Assembly: GCA_036004685.1 (NCBI GenBank)
Contig: DASYRE010000050.1
Span: 1 to 64,000, forward strand
Length of the DNA stretch: 64,000 nt
Source of the DNA: Candidatus Polarisedimenticolia bacterium
GTDB taxonomy: Bacteria; Acidobacteriota; Polarisedimenticolia; Gp22-AA2; AA152
Direction: 5' to 3'
Shown: piece by piece, positions 23,248 through 30,164 of the stretch
Layout: the number at the start of each line of letters is the position of its first letter
Numbering within the stretch: position 1 is the first letter of the stretch
Position numbers and translations under genes: made by a program
Notes under the pieces: model-generated
What the model was told of the DNA's origin: nothing
Seen by the model: only the letters and a program-made list of their open reading frames with translations
Databases searched by the model: none

Positions 23248-26200
23248 TTAGCGGTAGCCGAGATTCCCCGCCAGCCAGCGCTCCACTTCCGCGACCGGCA
23301 TCGCCTTGCGCGCGGCGTAATCGGCCACCTGATCCCGACCGACCTTCCCCACCGAGAAGTAGCGCGCCTCGGGATGGGCGAAGTACCATCCGCTCACCGA
23401 CGCGGCCGGGTCCATGGCGCACGATTCGGTGAGCACGATGCCGGCCGCGCCCCCCGGATCGAGAAGCTCCCAGAGCGTCCGCTTCTCGGAATGATCGGGG
23501 CAGGCCGGATAGCCCGGCGCGGGACGGATGCCGCGATATTTCTCCTTCAGCAGCTCCTCCTTTGACAGCCGCTCGTCGCGCCCGTATTGCCATTCCTGGC
23601 GCGCCTGCTCGTGCAGGCGCTCGGCGAAGGCCTCGGCGAGCCGGTCGGCGAGCGCCTTCGCCAGGATCGAGTGATAGTCGTCGTGGTCCCGCTCGAAGGT
23701 TTCGACCAGGGCCGGAAGGCCGACGCCCGCGGTGACGGCGAACGCCCCGAGATAGTCCGGCCGGCCTCCGTCTCGCGGGGCGACGAAATCGGACAGAGCG
23801 ATCCGCGGCCGGGAGTCGCCGGTCTCCGCCTGCTGGCGCAGCATGTGGAGCCTCAGCGTCTCGCCCGCTCCTGACTCTTCCGGCCGAATCACCAGATCCT
23901 CGCCGTCGCTCCCGGCGGGAAAGAAGCCGTACACGCCGTGCGCCGCCAGGAGCTTTTCGCGAACGATCCGGTCAAGCAGAGCCCGGCCTGCTTCGAAGAG
24001 CTCGCGCGCCGCGGCTCCCCGTTCCGGATGGTCCAGAATCGCGGGATAGACGCCGCGCAGCTCCCAGACATGGAAGAAGGGGGACCAGTCGATGTAGGGG
24101 ACCAGCTCTTCGAGCGGCTGATCCCGCACCACCCGGCGGCCGAGGAAAGCGGGCCGCGGCGGAGCGTAGGCGTCCCAGTCGAGCTGCAGCGCGCGCCGGC
24201 GGGCCTCGGGGAAGAGGAGGAGATCGCGCTCGGCCCCCTCCGACCAGCGCAGCCGGGCCGCCTCCTGCTCCTCGCGGATGCGCGCCGCGAACGCGGGGCG
24301 CGAGGTGTCGCTCACGAGCTGGCTCATCACCTCCACCGCCCGGGAGGCGTCGAGGACGTGCACCGTCGTCCCGCCGTAGACCGGGGCGATCTTCACCGCC
24401 GTGTGCTTGCGGCTGGTGGTGGCGCCGCCGATCAGCAGCGGCAGATGAAGGTTCCGGCGCTGCATCTCCGAGGCGACGTGGACCATCTCGTCCAGAGACG
24501 GAGTGATCAGGCCGCTCAAGCCGATCAGGTCGGCCTTCTCCTCGACCGCGGTCGTCAGGATACGATCGGCGCTGACCATCACTCCCAGATCGATGATGTC
24601 GTAGTTGTTACAGCCGAGGACGACGCCGACGATGTTCTTGCCGATGTCGTGAACGTCCCCCTTGACCGTCGCCAGGACGATGCGCGCGCGGGCCCGGGCC
24701 GCCGCCCCGGAGCTCTTCTTCTCCGCTTCCATGAGCGGCTCCAGGATCGCCACCGCCTTCTTCATGACGCGGGCGCTCTTGACGACCTGGGGGAGAAACA
24801 TCTTCCCGGCTCCGAACAGATCGCCGACGACGTTCATGCCGGCCATCAGCGGTCCCTCGATGATGGCCAGCGGCGAGGGATAGGCCCGCAGCGCCTCGGC
24901 GATGTCTTCGTCGACGTGGTCGGCGACTCCCCGGACCATGGCGTGCTCCAGGCGCTTCTCGAGAGGCTCCCGGCGCCAGGCGTCGTCCTTGGCGCGGTCC
25001 ACGGCCTTGGCGCGGAACCCGTCGGCGAACTCCACCAGCCTCTCGGTCGCGTCCGGCCGGCGGTTCAGGAGCACGTCCTCGACGCGCTCCTTGAGCTCGG
25101 CCGGGATGTCGTCGTAGACGGCGAGCTGGCCGGCGTTGACGATCCCCATGTCCATGCCGGCCTGGATGGCGTGGTAGAGGAAGGCGGCGTGCATGGCGTC
25201 GCGGATCGCGTCGTTGCCGCGGAAGGAGAAGGACAGGTTGCTCACGCCGCCGCTGACGCGGCAGTTCGGGAAGCGCCGCCTCAGCTCCCGCGTCGCCTCG
25301 AGGTAGGTGACGGCGTAGCTGTTGTGCTCTTCGATGCCGGTCCCCACGGCGAGGATGTTGGGATCGAAGATGATGTCGGCGGGGTCGAAGCCGGCTTCCT
25401 GGGTGAGGATGCGGTAGGCCCGCTCCAGGATCGAGACCCGCCGGTCGACGGTCGTCGCCTGGCCCTGCTCGTCGAAGGCCATGACCACGACGGCGGCGCC
25501 GTAACGGCGGATGAGGCGCGCCTGGCGCTTGAACTCCTCCTCTCCTTCCTTGAGGCTGATCGAGTTGACGATACCCTTCCCTTGAAGGCACTTCAGGCCC
25601 GCTTCCAGCACCGAGAACTTCGAGCTGTCCACGACGATCGGCAGGCGCGCGATCTCCGGCTCCGAGGCGATCAGGTTCAGGAAGGAGGTCATCGCCTTCT
25701 CCGAGTCGATCAGCCCCTCGTCCATGTTCACGTCGAGCAGGTTCGCGCCCCCCTGGACCTGCTGGCGCGCCACGGCCAGCGCCTCCTCCATCCGGTTCTC
25801 GCGGATCAGGCGGGCGAAGCGCCGCGACCCGGTGATGTTGGTGCGCTCGCCGATCATCGTGAAGTTGGAGTCGGGCCGGATCGTCAGCGGCTCGAGCCCG
25901 CTGAGCTGCGTCCGCTCCTCCGCCCGGGCCGGCCGGCGCGGCGGCAGGCCGCGCACCGCCTCCGCGATCGCCTCGATGTGCTCGGGGGTGGTGCCGCAGC
26001 AGCCGCCCGCGAGGTTCAGCCACCCTTCCTTGGCGTAGCCGGCCAGCAGCGTCGCCATCTCGCCGGGGCTCTGGCGATAGCGCCCCAGCTCGTCGGGAAG
26101 CCCCGCGTTGGGATAGCAATGGACCCAGATCGGGGCGAGCCGGGACATCTCCTCGAGGTGCGGCTCCATCTCCGCCGCGCCGAGGGCGCAGTTGAGACCG

Positions 26201-26925
26201 ACGCCGAAAAGCTCGGCGTGGCGGATCGAGATCCAGGCCGCTTCCAGCGTCTGCCCCGACAGGGTCCGGCCGCTGCGGTCGGTGATCGTCAGCGAAGCGA
26301 TCACCGGGACGCGCCGGCCGGTCTCGTCGAAGGCGCGCCGAATGGCGAACAAGGCGGCCTTGAGGTTCAGGGTGTCGAACGTCGTCTCGGGGAGGAGGAG
26401 GTCGACGCCGCCGGCGAGCAGGCCGAGGGCCTGCTCACGGTAGGCGCGCTCGAGGTCGTCGAAGCCGACCGCCCGGAACCCGGGGTCCTCGACGCGCGGC
26501 GAGAGCGACGCCGTCCGGCTGGTGGGCCCCATGGAGCCGGCGACAAAACGGGGGCGATCCGGCGTCCGGGCGGTAATCGCCGCCGCGGCGCGCCGCGCCG
26601 TTTCCGCCGCCGCCTGGTTGATCGCGAAGACGCTCGCTTCGAGCCCGTATTCCGAAAGCGACACGGCGGTCGCGTTGAAGGTGTTCGTCTCGATGATGTC
26701 GGCGCCCGCCTCCAGATAGCGCCGGTGGATCTTCTCGACGAGCGCCGGCTGGGTGATCGAGAGAAGGTCGTTGCACCCTTTCAGGTCGCGGGGGTGGTCC
26801 TTATAATGGCGCCCGCGGAAGGCCGCTTCGTCCAGGCCTTCCGCCTGGATCATCGTCCCCATGGCGCCGTCCAGGATCAACAGGCGCGTGGCGAGGAGGC
26901 GTTGCAGCTCGTCCAGCCGGCTCAA
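23248..26925 (-). CDS. metH: Cobalamin-dependent methionine synthase
   Basis: The 1225-residue enzyme transfers the methyl group of methyltetrahydrofolate to homocysteine through cobalamin. Domains run in the standard order. The homocysteine-binding barrel (1-330) has zinc cysteines in GLNCALG and Cys309/Cys310 of GGCCGTT. The pterin barrel (about 350-620) has [16 protein letters not shown]. The cap lies at about 640-735. The cobalamin domain has DVHDIG with His759, the position expected for the axial ligand. The AdoMet-dependent reactivation domain (about 900-1225) ends [10 protein letters not shown]-like. Length matches the family. The start is TTG with GGAGA five bases upstream. No cobalamin or SAM-type riboswitch is visible in the 150 bp upstream. 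Confidence 0.97.
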
Positions 26926-27471: not shown

Positions 27472-27912
27472 TCAGTTGCCGGGCTCGTCTCCCGTGACCA
27501 CGAACTTGCCCGCCTTGGTCCAACCGACGATTCCCGCCGGCATGATGTAGAGGTTGCGGTAGCCGAGATCGGCGGCCCTCCGGGCCGCGCGATGGCATTC
27601 CATTCAACGCTCGCTGTGGCAGTAGAAGACGAGGGTCGTGCTCTTGTCGGCGGGCAGGACTCCTTCTTTCATGTCCTTGCTCAGCAGGTGGACGGCGCCC
27701 GGAATGTGTCCTTCCCGGTACACGTCGTCGCTGTTGCCATCGTAGACTCGGACGCTGGGGTCGGTGATGAGCTTGCTGGTTTCCTCCACCGTAAGCCGCT
27801 TGAAAGGCTCGCTCTCGGCGCTCTTGCTTTCCTTGGTTGCGGCCGGCAGCCGGTGCACGAGCAGCAAGACGGCAGCCGCCAGGCCAAGACATCGGATGAG
27901 GGGTCTCGTCAT
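27472..27912 (-). CDS. Exported rhodanese-domain protein with in-frame TGA (candidate selenoprotein)
   Basis: Start ATG 27912 has AGGAGG six bases upstream and a signal peptide (TRPLIRCLGLAAAVLLLVHRLPAA). The rhodanese fold follows: LTVEETSKLI, VRVYDGNSDDVYREGHIPGAVHL, and the active-site strand VFYC at Cys98. Codon 103 is TGA (27604-27606), and the frame continues without a break as MECHRAARRAADLGYRNLYIMPAGIVGW to a stop at 27472, completing the domain. The interrupted site reads C-x4-[TGA]-MEC, where relatives with a CxxxxC loop place cysteine. After the TGA a perfect 7-bp stem (27572-27588) closes a GGA loop 23 bases downstream, which is the geometry of a bacterial SECIS. Alternatives are a Cys-codon mutation or a base error. 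No sel genes are in the window. Confidence 0.6.
27572..27588 (-). promoter_or_regulatory. Candidate SECIS hairpin
   Basis: On the coding (minus) strand GCGGCCC pairs with GGGCCGC around the loop GGA. The loop begins 23 nucleotides after the in-frame TGA and starts with G, both within the rules for bacterial selenocysteine insertion elements. GC-rich DNA makes chance hairpins common, so this is suggestive only. Confidence 0.45.
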
Positions 27913-27950
27913 GGGGATCCTCCTATGCGGGCGATGCGCTGCGAACCTCT

Positions 27951-29885
27951 TCACTGCTTCACGCTCTCCAGGAGCTTTTTCTCCGCGTCGCTGGGCGGCT
28001 CGAACCTTCCTCCCAGGTACTTCGCCAGGAACTCTTCGCTTGCGGCATTGAACGCCGTGCGGTTCTCGGGACGCGCGAAGCCGTGTCCTTCGTCCGGGAA
28101 GACGTAGTACACGACCGGCTTTCCGTTTTTGCGCATGGCGGCGACGATCTGATCACTTTCCGCTTTGTTCACTCTCGGATCGTTGGCGCCCTGACCGATG
28201 AGCAAGGGCATCTTGATGCGATCGGCCTGGAACAGCGGCGATTGCGTCCTGAGGAACTCCTCGTCCTCGCCCATGCGCTTGTGGAAGATCGCCACGAGGG
28301 TGGACCAGTAGGGGGGGATCGTCGCAAGCAGCGTGTTCAGATTCGATGGCCCCACGATGTCGACGCCGCAGGCGAAGGCGTCGGGAGAGAAGGCCGCGGC
28401 GGCGAGAGTGGCGTAGCCGCCGTAGCTGCCCCCCATGATGCAAACCTTGCCGGCGTCGGCGATTCCTTCCTTGACCGCCCACTCCTTGGCGTCGAGCAGG
28501 TCGGTATGCATGGCGCCGGCCCACTGGCGATCGCCGGCATTGAGGTACTCCTTTCCATAGCCGGTGGAGGAGCGGAAGTTCGGCTGCAGAACCGCGTAGC
28601 CGCGATTGGCCAGCCACTGGGCGTAGGGATCGTATCCCCACAAATCGCGGGCCCAGGGACCGCCGTGCGGGAAGATCACCATGGGCAGGTCTTTGGCTTC
28701 CACACCGGCGGGCGTGGTCAGGTAGCCGTAGAGGGTCATCCCGTCGCGCGCCTTGTACTGCATCGGCCGCACCTTGGCGAGCTTCTCCTTCTCCAGGGCC
28801 GGGCGGGCGCTGAAGAGCAGCGTGAGTTTCTTCGCAGGACGCTCGTAGAGATAGTAGTAGAGAGGCGCGTCATCCCCTTCCAGCGTCACGATCCAGCGGT
28901 CGTCGGAGAGATCGCGGCTCAGGTTGCTGATGTCGGCGGGGCGCGCCTTGCGGATCGCGTCCAAATCGGGCTGCAGGCTCTTGTCGAGCACCTGAAAATC
29001 GCGGCGCTCCCTCAGGAACACCACAGCTTGAAGCTTGTTGGTCTTGGGATGACTGACCACGAAGGAGACGTCGAACCGGGGGTCTTCGACCACGACCGTG
29101 CGCTTCCCCGTCGCTACGTCCACCGAGAGGAGGCGCGCGGCGTTGGCGTCCAGCGAAGTGATCACCAGCAGGCCTTTGTCGTCCGCCGTGAAGCCGACGA
29201 GCTTCCCCAGCGTCTCCTCCGGGCCCCACTTCATCAGCTCCCGCCAGGGGGATTTGACCGTGTCGCGCACCCGGATCACAGTGCCGCCCTCCGGAGTGGT
29301 CACCTGGGCGGCGCGGATCTGAAGAGCGTGATCCGCCTGCCAATCCAGGACATCCCCGGGGTTTTCCGTATCGAGGGCCAGCTCGCCGGTTCTCAGGCTC
29401 AGGCGGTGAACGTCGAACAGCTCCGCTTTGCGTTTGTTCAAGGTGATGAGCGCGGTGTCGGGCCGGCCGGGCTCCAGCGCCAGGAGCTCGCCCCGGGTCT
29501 TGTCGAAGGGCGTGAGGTCGCGGGTTTTCCGCGTGGCGACGTTGGCCTGGTTCACGTGCCAGTTCTCGTCGCCGTTCTGATCCTGCGTGTAGAGAACGTT
29601 CTTCGAATCGAACTCCCAATGCAGGTTGCGGATGCCGCGTTTGCGGTCCTGGGTGATCACCCGATCGTCGTTCTTCCCCAGAGTGCGCACCCAGATGTTG
29701 AGCACCCCGTGGTCAGGCGCGAGATAGGCGAGCATCCTGCCGTCCGGCGAGATCTCCGGGGAGGACCGCTCCGGATTGCCGAACAGGACGCTGCGGGGAA
29801 TGAGCGGAGCCTGCGGTTGCGCCAGGGCGGCGGACGCCATGAGCAGCAGAAGCGCAAAGCACGGCAGACGGTGGAGGCGTTTCAT
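27951..29885 (-). CDS. Exported S9-family prolyl oligopeptidase-like serine peptidase
   Basis: The product has about 644 residues. ATG 29885 is preferred (GGAG six bases upstream, signal peptide MKRLHRLPCFALLLLMASAALA); ATGs at 29888 and 29897 are in frame. The N-terminal half is a beta-propeller (about 30-370; SPDGRMLAYLAP is a typical blade). The C-terminal alpha/beta hydrolase carries the nucleophile in CIMGGSYGGYATL, the aspartate in GQGANDPRVNKAESDQI and the histidine in DEGHGF. It cleaves short peptides that fit through the propeller, probably in the periplasm. It is 38 bp upstream of the rhodanese gene on the same strand. All three catalytic residues are present. Confidence 0.93.
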   Translation of the reverse strand: MKRLHRLPCFALLLLMASAALAQPQAPLIPRSVLFGNPERSSPEISPDGRMLAYLAPDHGVLNIWVRTLGKNDDRVITQDRKRGIRNLHWEFDSKNVLYTQDQNGDENWHVNQANVATRKTRDLTPFDKTRGELLALEPGRPDTALITLNKRKAELFDVHRLSLRTGELALDTENPGDVLDWQADHALQIRAAQVTTPEGGTVIRVRDTVKSPWRELMKWGPEETLGKLVGFTADDKGLLVITSLDANAARLLSVDVATGKRTVVVEDPRFDVSFVVSHPKTNKLQAVVFLRERRDFQVLDKSLQPDLDAIRKARPADISNLSRDLSDDRWIVTLEGDDAPLYYYLYERPAKKLTLLFSARPALEKEKLAKVRPMQYKARDGMTLYGYLTTPAGVEAKDLPMVIFPHGGPWARDLWGYDPYAQWLANRGYAVLQPNFRSSTGYGKEYLNAGDRQWAGAMHTDLLDAKEWAVKEGIADAGKVCIMGGSYGGYATLAAAAFSPDAFACGVDIVGPSNLNTLLATIPPYWSTLVAIFHKRMGEDEEFLRTQSPLFQADRIKMPLLIGQGANDPRVNKAESDQIVAAMRKNGKPVVYYVFPDEGHGFARPENRTAFNAASEEFLAKYLGGRFEPPSDAEKKLLESVKQ

Positions 29886-30164
29886 CATGGTCTCCATGAT
29901 TCTAGGGAAGAACGAGCTGGATCACCGGTGGCGGCGAGCTTCGCAGCGTCCCTGTTCTGATTCTGCGTGTCGTCAAGTATACGGCATGGACTCGGCTTTG
30001 GTTCATCATCAGGCTGAAGCGGCGGAACAGGTGGGCGGTTGGTGATGGACAAGCGTCGGGAGAAGACGTGCGCCTTCGCCCGGCGCCACGCCGATTACCA
30101 GGCTGTGGCAGATTGGGTTATCGCCGGCCCTTCGAAAGCTCAGTTGGACGGCCGCTGAGGGTTC
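29886..30164. other. Intergenic region between S9 peptidase and ADOP permease
   Basis: No gene is recognised. On the minus strand a TATACT hexamer (about 29977-29982) could be the -10 for the peptidase gene, but no good -35 is visible. Confidence 0.35.

Follow-up and report, generated by a model that had tools for sequence, protein, structure and literature searches.

A predicted exported rhodanese of uncultured Acidobacteriota with a probable UGA-encoded selenocysteine at the second cysteine position of a CX4C loop

The rhodanese locus

The window, meaning the whole 64,000-nt stretch of DNA that was analysed, carries a rhodanese gene on its minus strand, from 27912 to 27472; the first-pass annotation had named no strand. 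The ATG start codon lies at 27912–27910, preceded by a ribosome binding site read from the sequence as AGGAGG (27919..27924, minus strand). Translation bore out the first-pass annotation's description of a single TGA in the rhodanese frame, which falls at codon 103 (27606–27604). It had further described 44 codons after this TGA; the frame does run on uninterrupted, with 43 sense codons followed by a TGA stop (27474–27472, minus strand), so that the figure of 44 included the stop. If the internal TGA is read as selenocysteine (Sec), the coding sequence (27475..27912, minus strand) specifies a protein of 146 residues in which the residues around the Sec site are FYC-HSER-U-ME-CH, that is, a C-x4-U-x2-C-H motif.

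The N-terminus resembles a signal peptide (MTRPLIRCLGLAAAVLLLVHRL; 27847..27912, minus strand, limits approximate), and hydrophobic N-termini were seen across all orthologues. Two Myxococcota relatives have the lipobox-like N-termini LTGAAVLGC and LALSAVGC. From its hydrophobic N-terminus, the rhodanese is predicted to be an exported protein.

The ORF directly upstream on the same strand (27951–29897, 648 aa) resembles an exported prolyl oligopeptidase of the S9 family, and 38 nt separate its end from the start of the rhodanese. A 1225-aa minus-strand ORF at 23248–26925 looks by eye like a cobalamin-dependent methionine synthase (MetH), and a long antisense frame overlies it. The flanks of the rhodanese gene vary between the relatives that were looked at, with no common partner found by crude gene calling. 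Other in-frame TGAs in the window with coding-like flanks (23872 and 48186 on the plus strand, 53476 and 61142 on the minus strand) apparently belong to antisense frames or gene ends. An Rfam scan of the window gave no match at gathering thresholds.

Fold and active-site loop

When the TGA was translated as an amino acid, the protein matched the Pfam Rhodanese family (PF00581) at 55.5 bits over residues 41–133, well above the gathering score of 22.2. The structure was predicted with a mean pLDDT of 95–98 per ten-residue block over residues 41–140. The best solved structural relatives of the model were the rhodaneses BH2092 (Foldseek E-value 4e-8, Z-score 15.7, rmsd 2.9 over 115 residues) and GlpE (Z-score 15.9, rmsd 2.3 over 106 residues), and the fold matches SseA as well. 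Cys98, encoded together with Tyr97 at 27619..27624 (minus strand), ends the central strand, as expected for the catalytic cysteine of the rhodanese superfamily. Both residues occupy invariant columns in the alignments.

The loop between Cys98 and Sec103 has the same length as in CX4C rhodaneses such as BH2092 (YCWGPAC), from which it follows that Cys98 is the catalytic cysteine and that Sec103 replaces the second one. The UxxC pair had initially been placed at the second-cysteine position of a C-x4-C loop, and the equal loop length agrees with that placement. In the model, Sec103 sits just before the active-site helix, which begins at residue 105. As judged from alignment and model, Sec is thus a substitute for the second cysteine of the CX4C loop and not for the catalytic Cys98.

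Conservation of the in-frame TGA

When 100 relatives were searched, the nine best matches, including the window itself, each had exactly one internal TGA, at the same codon. The TGA column is accordingly kept in eight further genomes of the window's order. The order-mates carrying the gene are metagenome-assembled genomes named "Acidobacteria bacterium", several of them labelled gp22. The TGA was also found outside the phylum, in Deltaproteobacteria DP_38 and in Byssovorax. Overall, TGA aligned to TGA in 11 of 11 orthologues, with no other interruption of the frame, and Cys106 and His107 were invariant among these Sec orthologues.

Within the phylum, the closest rhodaneses with cysteine, one of them from the window's own genome, have it at the Sec column (YCSNPMCRKAP). 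The Cys paralogue of the window's genome (L071, G000:C31:148128-148397) reads YCSNPMCRKAPHAARRA and lacks the third cysteine. A more distant relative that falls outside the family proper (L067) has tyrosine at this column (YCSNSMYRKAP).

The search was extended to 379 genomes of the Myxococcota, the phylum of Byssovorax, 71 of which contained the rhodanese family. The Sec column was read in 30 of these loci and in one additional locus (L057), giving TGA in 14 genomes, TGC or TGT in 17, and nothing else. The alignment of homologues at codon 103, which the first-pass annotation had named as a check on its reading, therefore contained only a Sec-type TGA or Cys in the family loci read. The tree of the family implies about five changes between Sec and Cys (bootstrap range 4–7), and the strongly supported branches alone force at least two. 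A gene for tRNA-Sec was found in all 14 of the Myxococcota genomes with TGA, compared to 11 of the 17 with Cys (one-sided Fisher p = 0.017, with relatedness ignored); related genomes are not independent, so such p-values are indicative only.

The SECIS element

A hairpin with a perfect 7-bp stem and a GGA loop (GCGGCCC-GGA-GGGCCGC; 27572..27588, minus strand) begins 16 nt after the TGA, its first loop base being 23 nt after the TGA, exactly as first annotated. It has the features expected of a bacterial selenoprotein gene: a hairpin close downstream of the UGA, with a G in a small apical loop. The peptide encoded here is Ala-Ala-Arg-Arg-Ala-Ala, however, for which palindromes arise easily in GC-rich DNA. 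When the same peptide was recoded at random with synonymous codons following local usage, 24% of the recoded versions had a Watson–Crick stem of at least 7 bp and 4% folded with equal or greater stability, and 21 of 200 shuffled sequences folded as well as the hairpin. Since 24% of synonymous recodings equal the stem, the hairpin taken alone is no evidence for recoding; its significance comes from the comparison with relatives and not from folding of a single sequence.

Among the nine orthologues of the order, the stem codons at positions +6, +7, +8 and +10 after the TGA showed no synonymous differences (0 of 130 comparisons), while outside the hairpin element the same sequences differed in 516 of 1091 comparisons (47%). 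The best Watson–Crick stem at the right place was 5–8 bp long in 21 of 23 TGA members, compared to 3–5 bp in all Cys members scanned. The two remaining TGA members, L095 and L111, had no perfect stem longer than 3 bp in this simple scan. The acidobacterial elements share the apex CCC-GG(A/C)-GGG, with the exception of L025 (CC-CGGGC-GG). Many of the Myxococcota elements have GGUC loops on a different stem, so that position and shape are kept while the sequence differs. The conservation and the contrast with the Cys members indicate that the hairpin is a real SECIS element under selection. The first-pass annotation had thus identified it correctly, on grounds (a single sequence) that could not have shown it.

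Selenocysteine machinery

The first-pass annotation had pointed to selA, selB, selC and selD as genes to look for, and the genome to which the window belongs (3.84 Mb in 62 contigs, completeness 100) contains all four. The tRNA-Sec gene (selC) scored 75.1 bits and has the anticodon TCA, SelA scored 564 bits, and SelB is present. SelD (L048, G000:C8:40973-41899; 369 bits) itself has an in-frame TGA, in the sequence SGGUAAKLSP, the usual Sec site of this enzyme. SelD, itself a predicted selenoprotein, is therefore a second, independent user of Sec decoding in the same genome.

The selD gene of the window's genome has a hairpin of its own, AGTCC-GGA-GGACT, whose loop begins 18 nt after the TGA. 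All ten genomes of the order with a strong SelD match (the window's genome and nine others) carry the SelD TGA, and their selD elements take the form GTCC-GG(A/T)-GGAC. The selD SECIS elements of these ten genomes thus have an apical CC-GGN-GG in common with the rhodanese hairpins, suggesting that one SelB could recognise both.

No tRNA-Sec was found in three order-mates that carry the rhodanese gene (G003, G008 and G009), whose genomes are 84–89% complete. Another order-mate, G006 (95% complete), has tRNA-Sec without a strong SelD match or a rhodanese orthologue, a pattern that possibly reflects loss or an assembly gap.

The original inference that the TGA is recoded is supported by the Sec machinery, by the TGA/Cys column and by the conservation of the hairpin. 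Codon 103 is almost certainly recoded as selenocysteine, and the rhodanese is very probably a genuine selenoprotein with Sec at the place of the second loop cysteine.

Function and alternative explanations

We tentatively suggest that Sec103 has a role in persulfide or thiol redox chemistry in the periplasm. The insertion of Sec at residue 103 by SelB, Sec-tRNA(Sec) and the hairpin past the UGA is itself almost certain. In the cell envelope, Cys98 would take up sulfane sulfur (or become oxidised), and the low-pKa selenol of Sec103 would then attack the Cys98 persulfide (or sulfenate). This would form a Cys98–Sec103 (or Sec103–Cys106) selenenylsulfide, with the sulfur leaving as sulfide or being handed on, and a periplasmic thiol donor would recycle the selenenylsulfide. 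In its full form, the proposal, which we put forward with some reserve, is that the protein belongs to an unlisted and widespread family of exported rhodaneses in Acidobacteriota and Myxococcota that might act as periplasmic persulfide or selenenylsulfide reductases through a three-residue C-x4-U-x2-C relay, where Sec would be the resolving and not the sulfur-accepting residue, and where Sec and Cys have been swapped several times.

A less probable alternative is that the selenoprotein carries out classical sulfur transfer from thiosulfate or 3-mercaptopyruvate at Cys98, and that Sec103 only guards against over-oxidation. The invariance of Cys98 and the match to the folds of GlpE and SseA would fit this, but the replacement of the second cysteine alone, with exclusively Sec or Cys at that position, suggests a direct redox role. 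It is improbable that UxxCH is instead a modified haem c attachment or metal site. The protein is predicted to be exported, U-x-x-C-H does resemble CXXCH, and His107 is invariant in the orthologues, but in Myxococcota relatives the second cysteine is replaced by serine (CHASHI, CSASHV, CQASHM and UTASHT) with the domain kept, and in the model the motif falls where the active-site helix of the rhodanese domain begins. The CxxSH and UxxSH relatives make haem attachment in particular unlikely.

The other explanations deny that Sec is inserted at all. A plain annotation pipeline would call a 102-aa product, and the hairpin alone is within chance, so the gene might be a pseudogene or encode a truncated protein whose frame simply ends at the TGA. 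We consider this very improbable: the TGA occupies the same column in 11 orthologues from two phyla, the 38–43 codons past it are conserved, and the region is under protein constraint, with dN lower than dS (for example, 0.09 and 0.75 for the window versus L019). Truncation would also remove the active-site helix and final strand of the rhodanese domain, and the invariant Cys106 and His107 lie downstream of the TGA. An error in place of TGC or TGT is suggested by the Cys found in paralogues and many relatives, but the same TGA recurs in independent assemblies of separate genera, families and phyla. Because these assemblies are independent and span two phyla, a sequencing error is excluded, and with the stem codons frozen and the hairpin absent from Cys members, we give sequencing or assembly error hardly any weight. 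A global reassignment of UGA, for instance to Trp, would likewise account for in-frame readthrough, but has a negligible probability, given that UGA terminates the rhodanese gene as well as the S9 peptidase gene before it, that the alternative residue is Cys and not Trp, that the full Sec machinery is present, and that the standard code leaves the large coding ORFs of the window uninterrupted.

Sec recoding of this gene is about as certain as comparative genomics allows. The result adds a well-supported Sec subfamily whose product standard gene calling would cut at residue 102, and it suggests that uncultured Acidobacteriota have sulfur or thiol chemistry in the cell envelope that depends on selenium. 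Because it offers many natural exchanges of Sec and Cys at one position, the family is a good test case for the retention of Sec in some lineages, and also for the gain and loss of the hairpin along with the codon.

Comparison with known rhodaneses

Rhodanese-family selenoproteins have been described before, as the first-pass annotation had stated, though with other motifs: a 2026 inventory lists five forms, with the motifs UxxS, UxxG, CxU, UxxG and UxxxxU (PMC13188914). A UxxC form, or an exported C-x4-U-x2-C-H form, is absent among these five. By the rule of that inventory, a different Sec motif means a different subfamily (PMC13188914), and the unlisted UxxC motif therefore makes the window rhodanese a new subfamily within the known rhodanese selenoproteins. 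No report of the subfamily in Acidobacteriota or Myxococcota was found in the open-access literature searched.

Form 1 of the inventory (PF00581, UxxS, WP_010941598.1; PMC13188914) likewise has a rhodanese domain with one Sec. It differs in its motif, as the window protein has UxxC followed by His, is predicted to be exported and has conserved Cys106 and His107. A different Sec rhodanese from the window's phylum (L031, G064, 1498–1848) has a C-x4-U-x2-S motif and the hairpin AGCCGCC-CGTGAGTT-GGCGGCT, and its Sec seems to occupy the loop position that Sec has in the window rhodanese. As L031 suggests, the window rhodanese and form 1, the latter compared by its listed motif, probably share the Sec column.

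The GlpE, PspE and YgaP rhodaneses have the fold and the catalytic cysteine of the window protein, without Sec and with a shorter active-site loop. BH2092 (PDB 3nhv/3o3w), a single-domain CX4C rhodanese from structural genomics with no stated function, has the same fold and a YC-x4-C loop of equal length, with Cys where the window protein would have Sec and without the third cysteine.

The window rhodanese passed no NCBIfam model at its cut-off. The LYCAU rhodanese-related (seleno)protein family (NF041203, CxU) is likewise single-domain and can carry Sec, but the window protein scored 36.7 bits where the cut-off is 115, and its motif is CxxxxUxxC. The best NCBIfam match by E-value was TsoB (NF045694; WP_332113227.1), a rhodanese/DsbD fusion-like protein with a UxxxxU motif, but the score of 43.8 bits is far below the cut-off of 805; at 146 aa, the window protein lacks the DsbD-like part and has CxxxxU. 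The U-x4-U spacing of TsoB is consistent with Sec in place of both cysteines of this CX4C loop, the catalytic one and the second, whereas in the window rhodanese only the second of these positions would be Sec.
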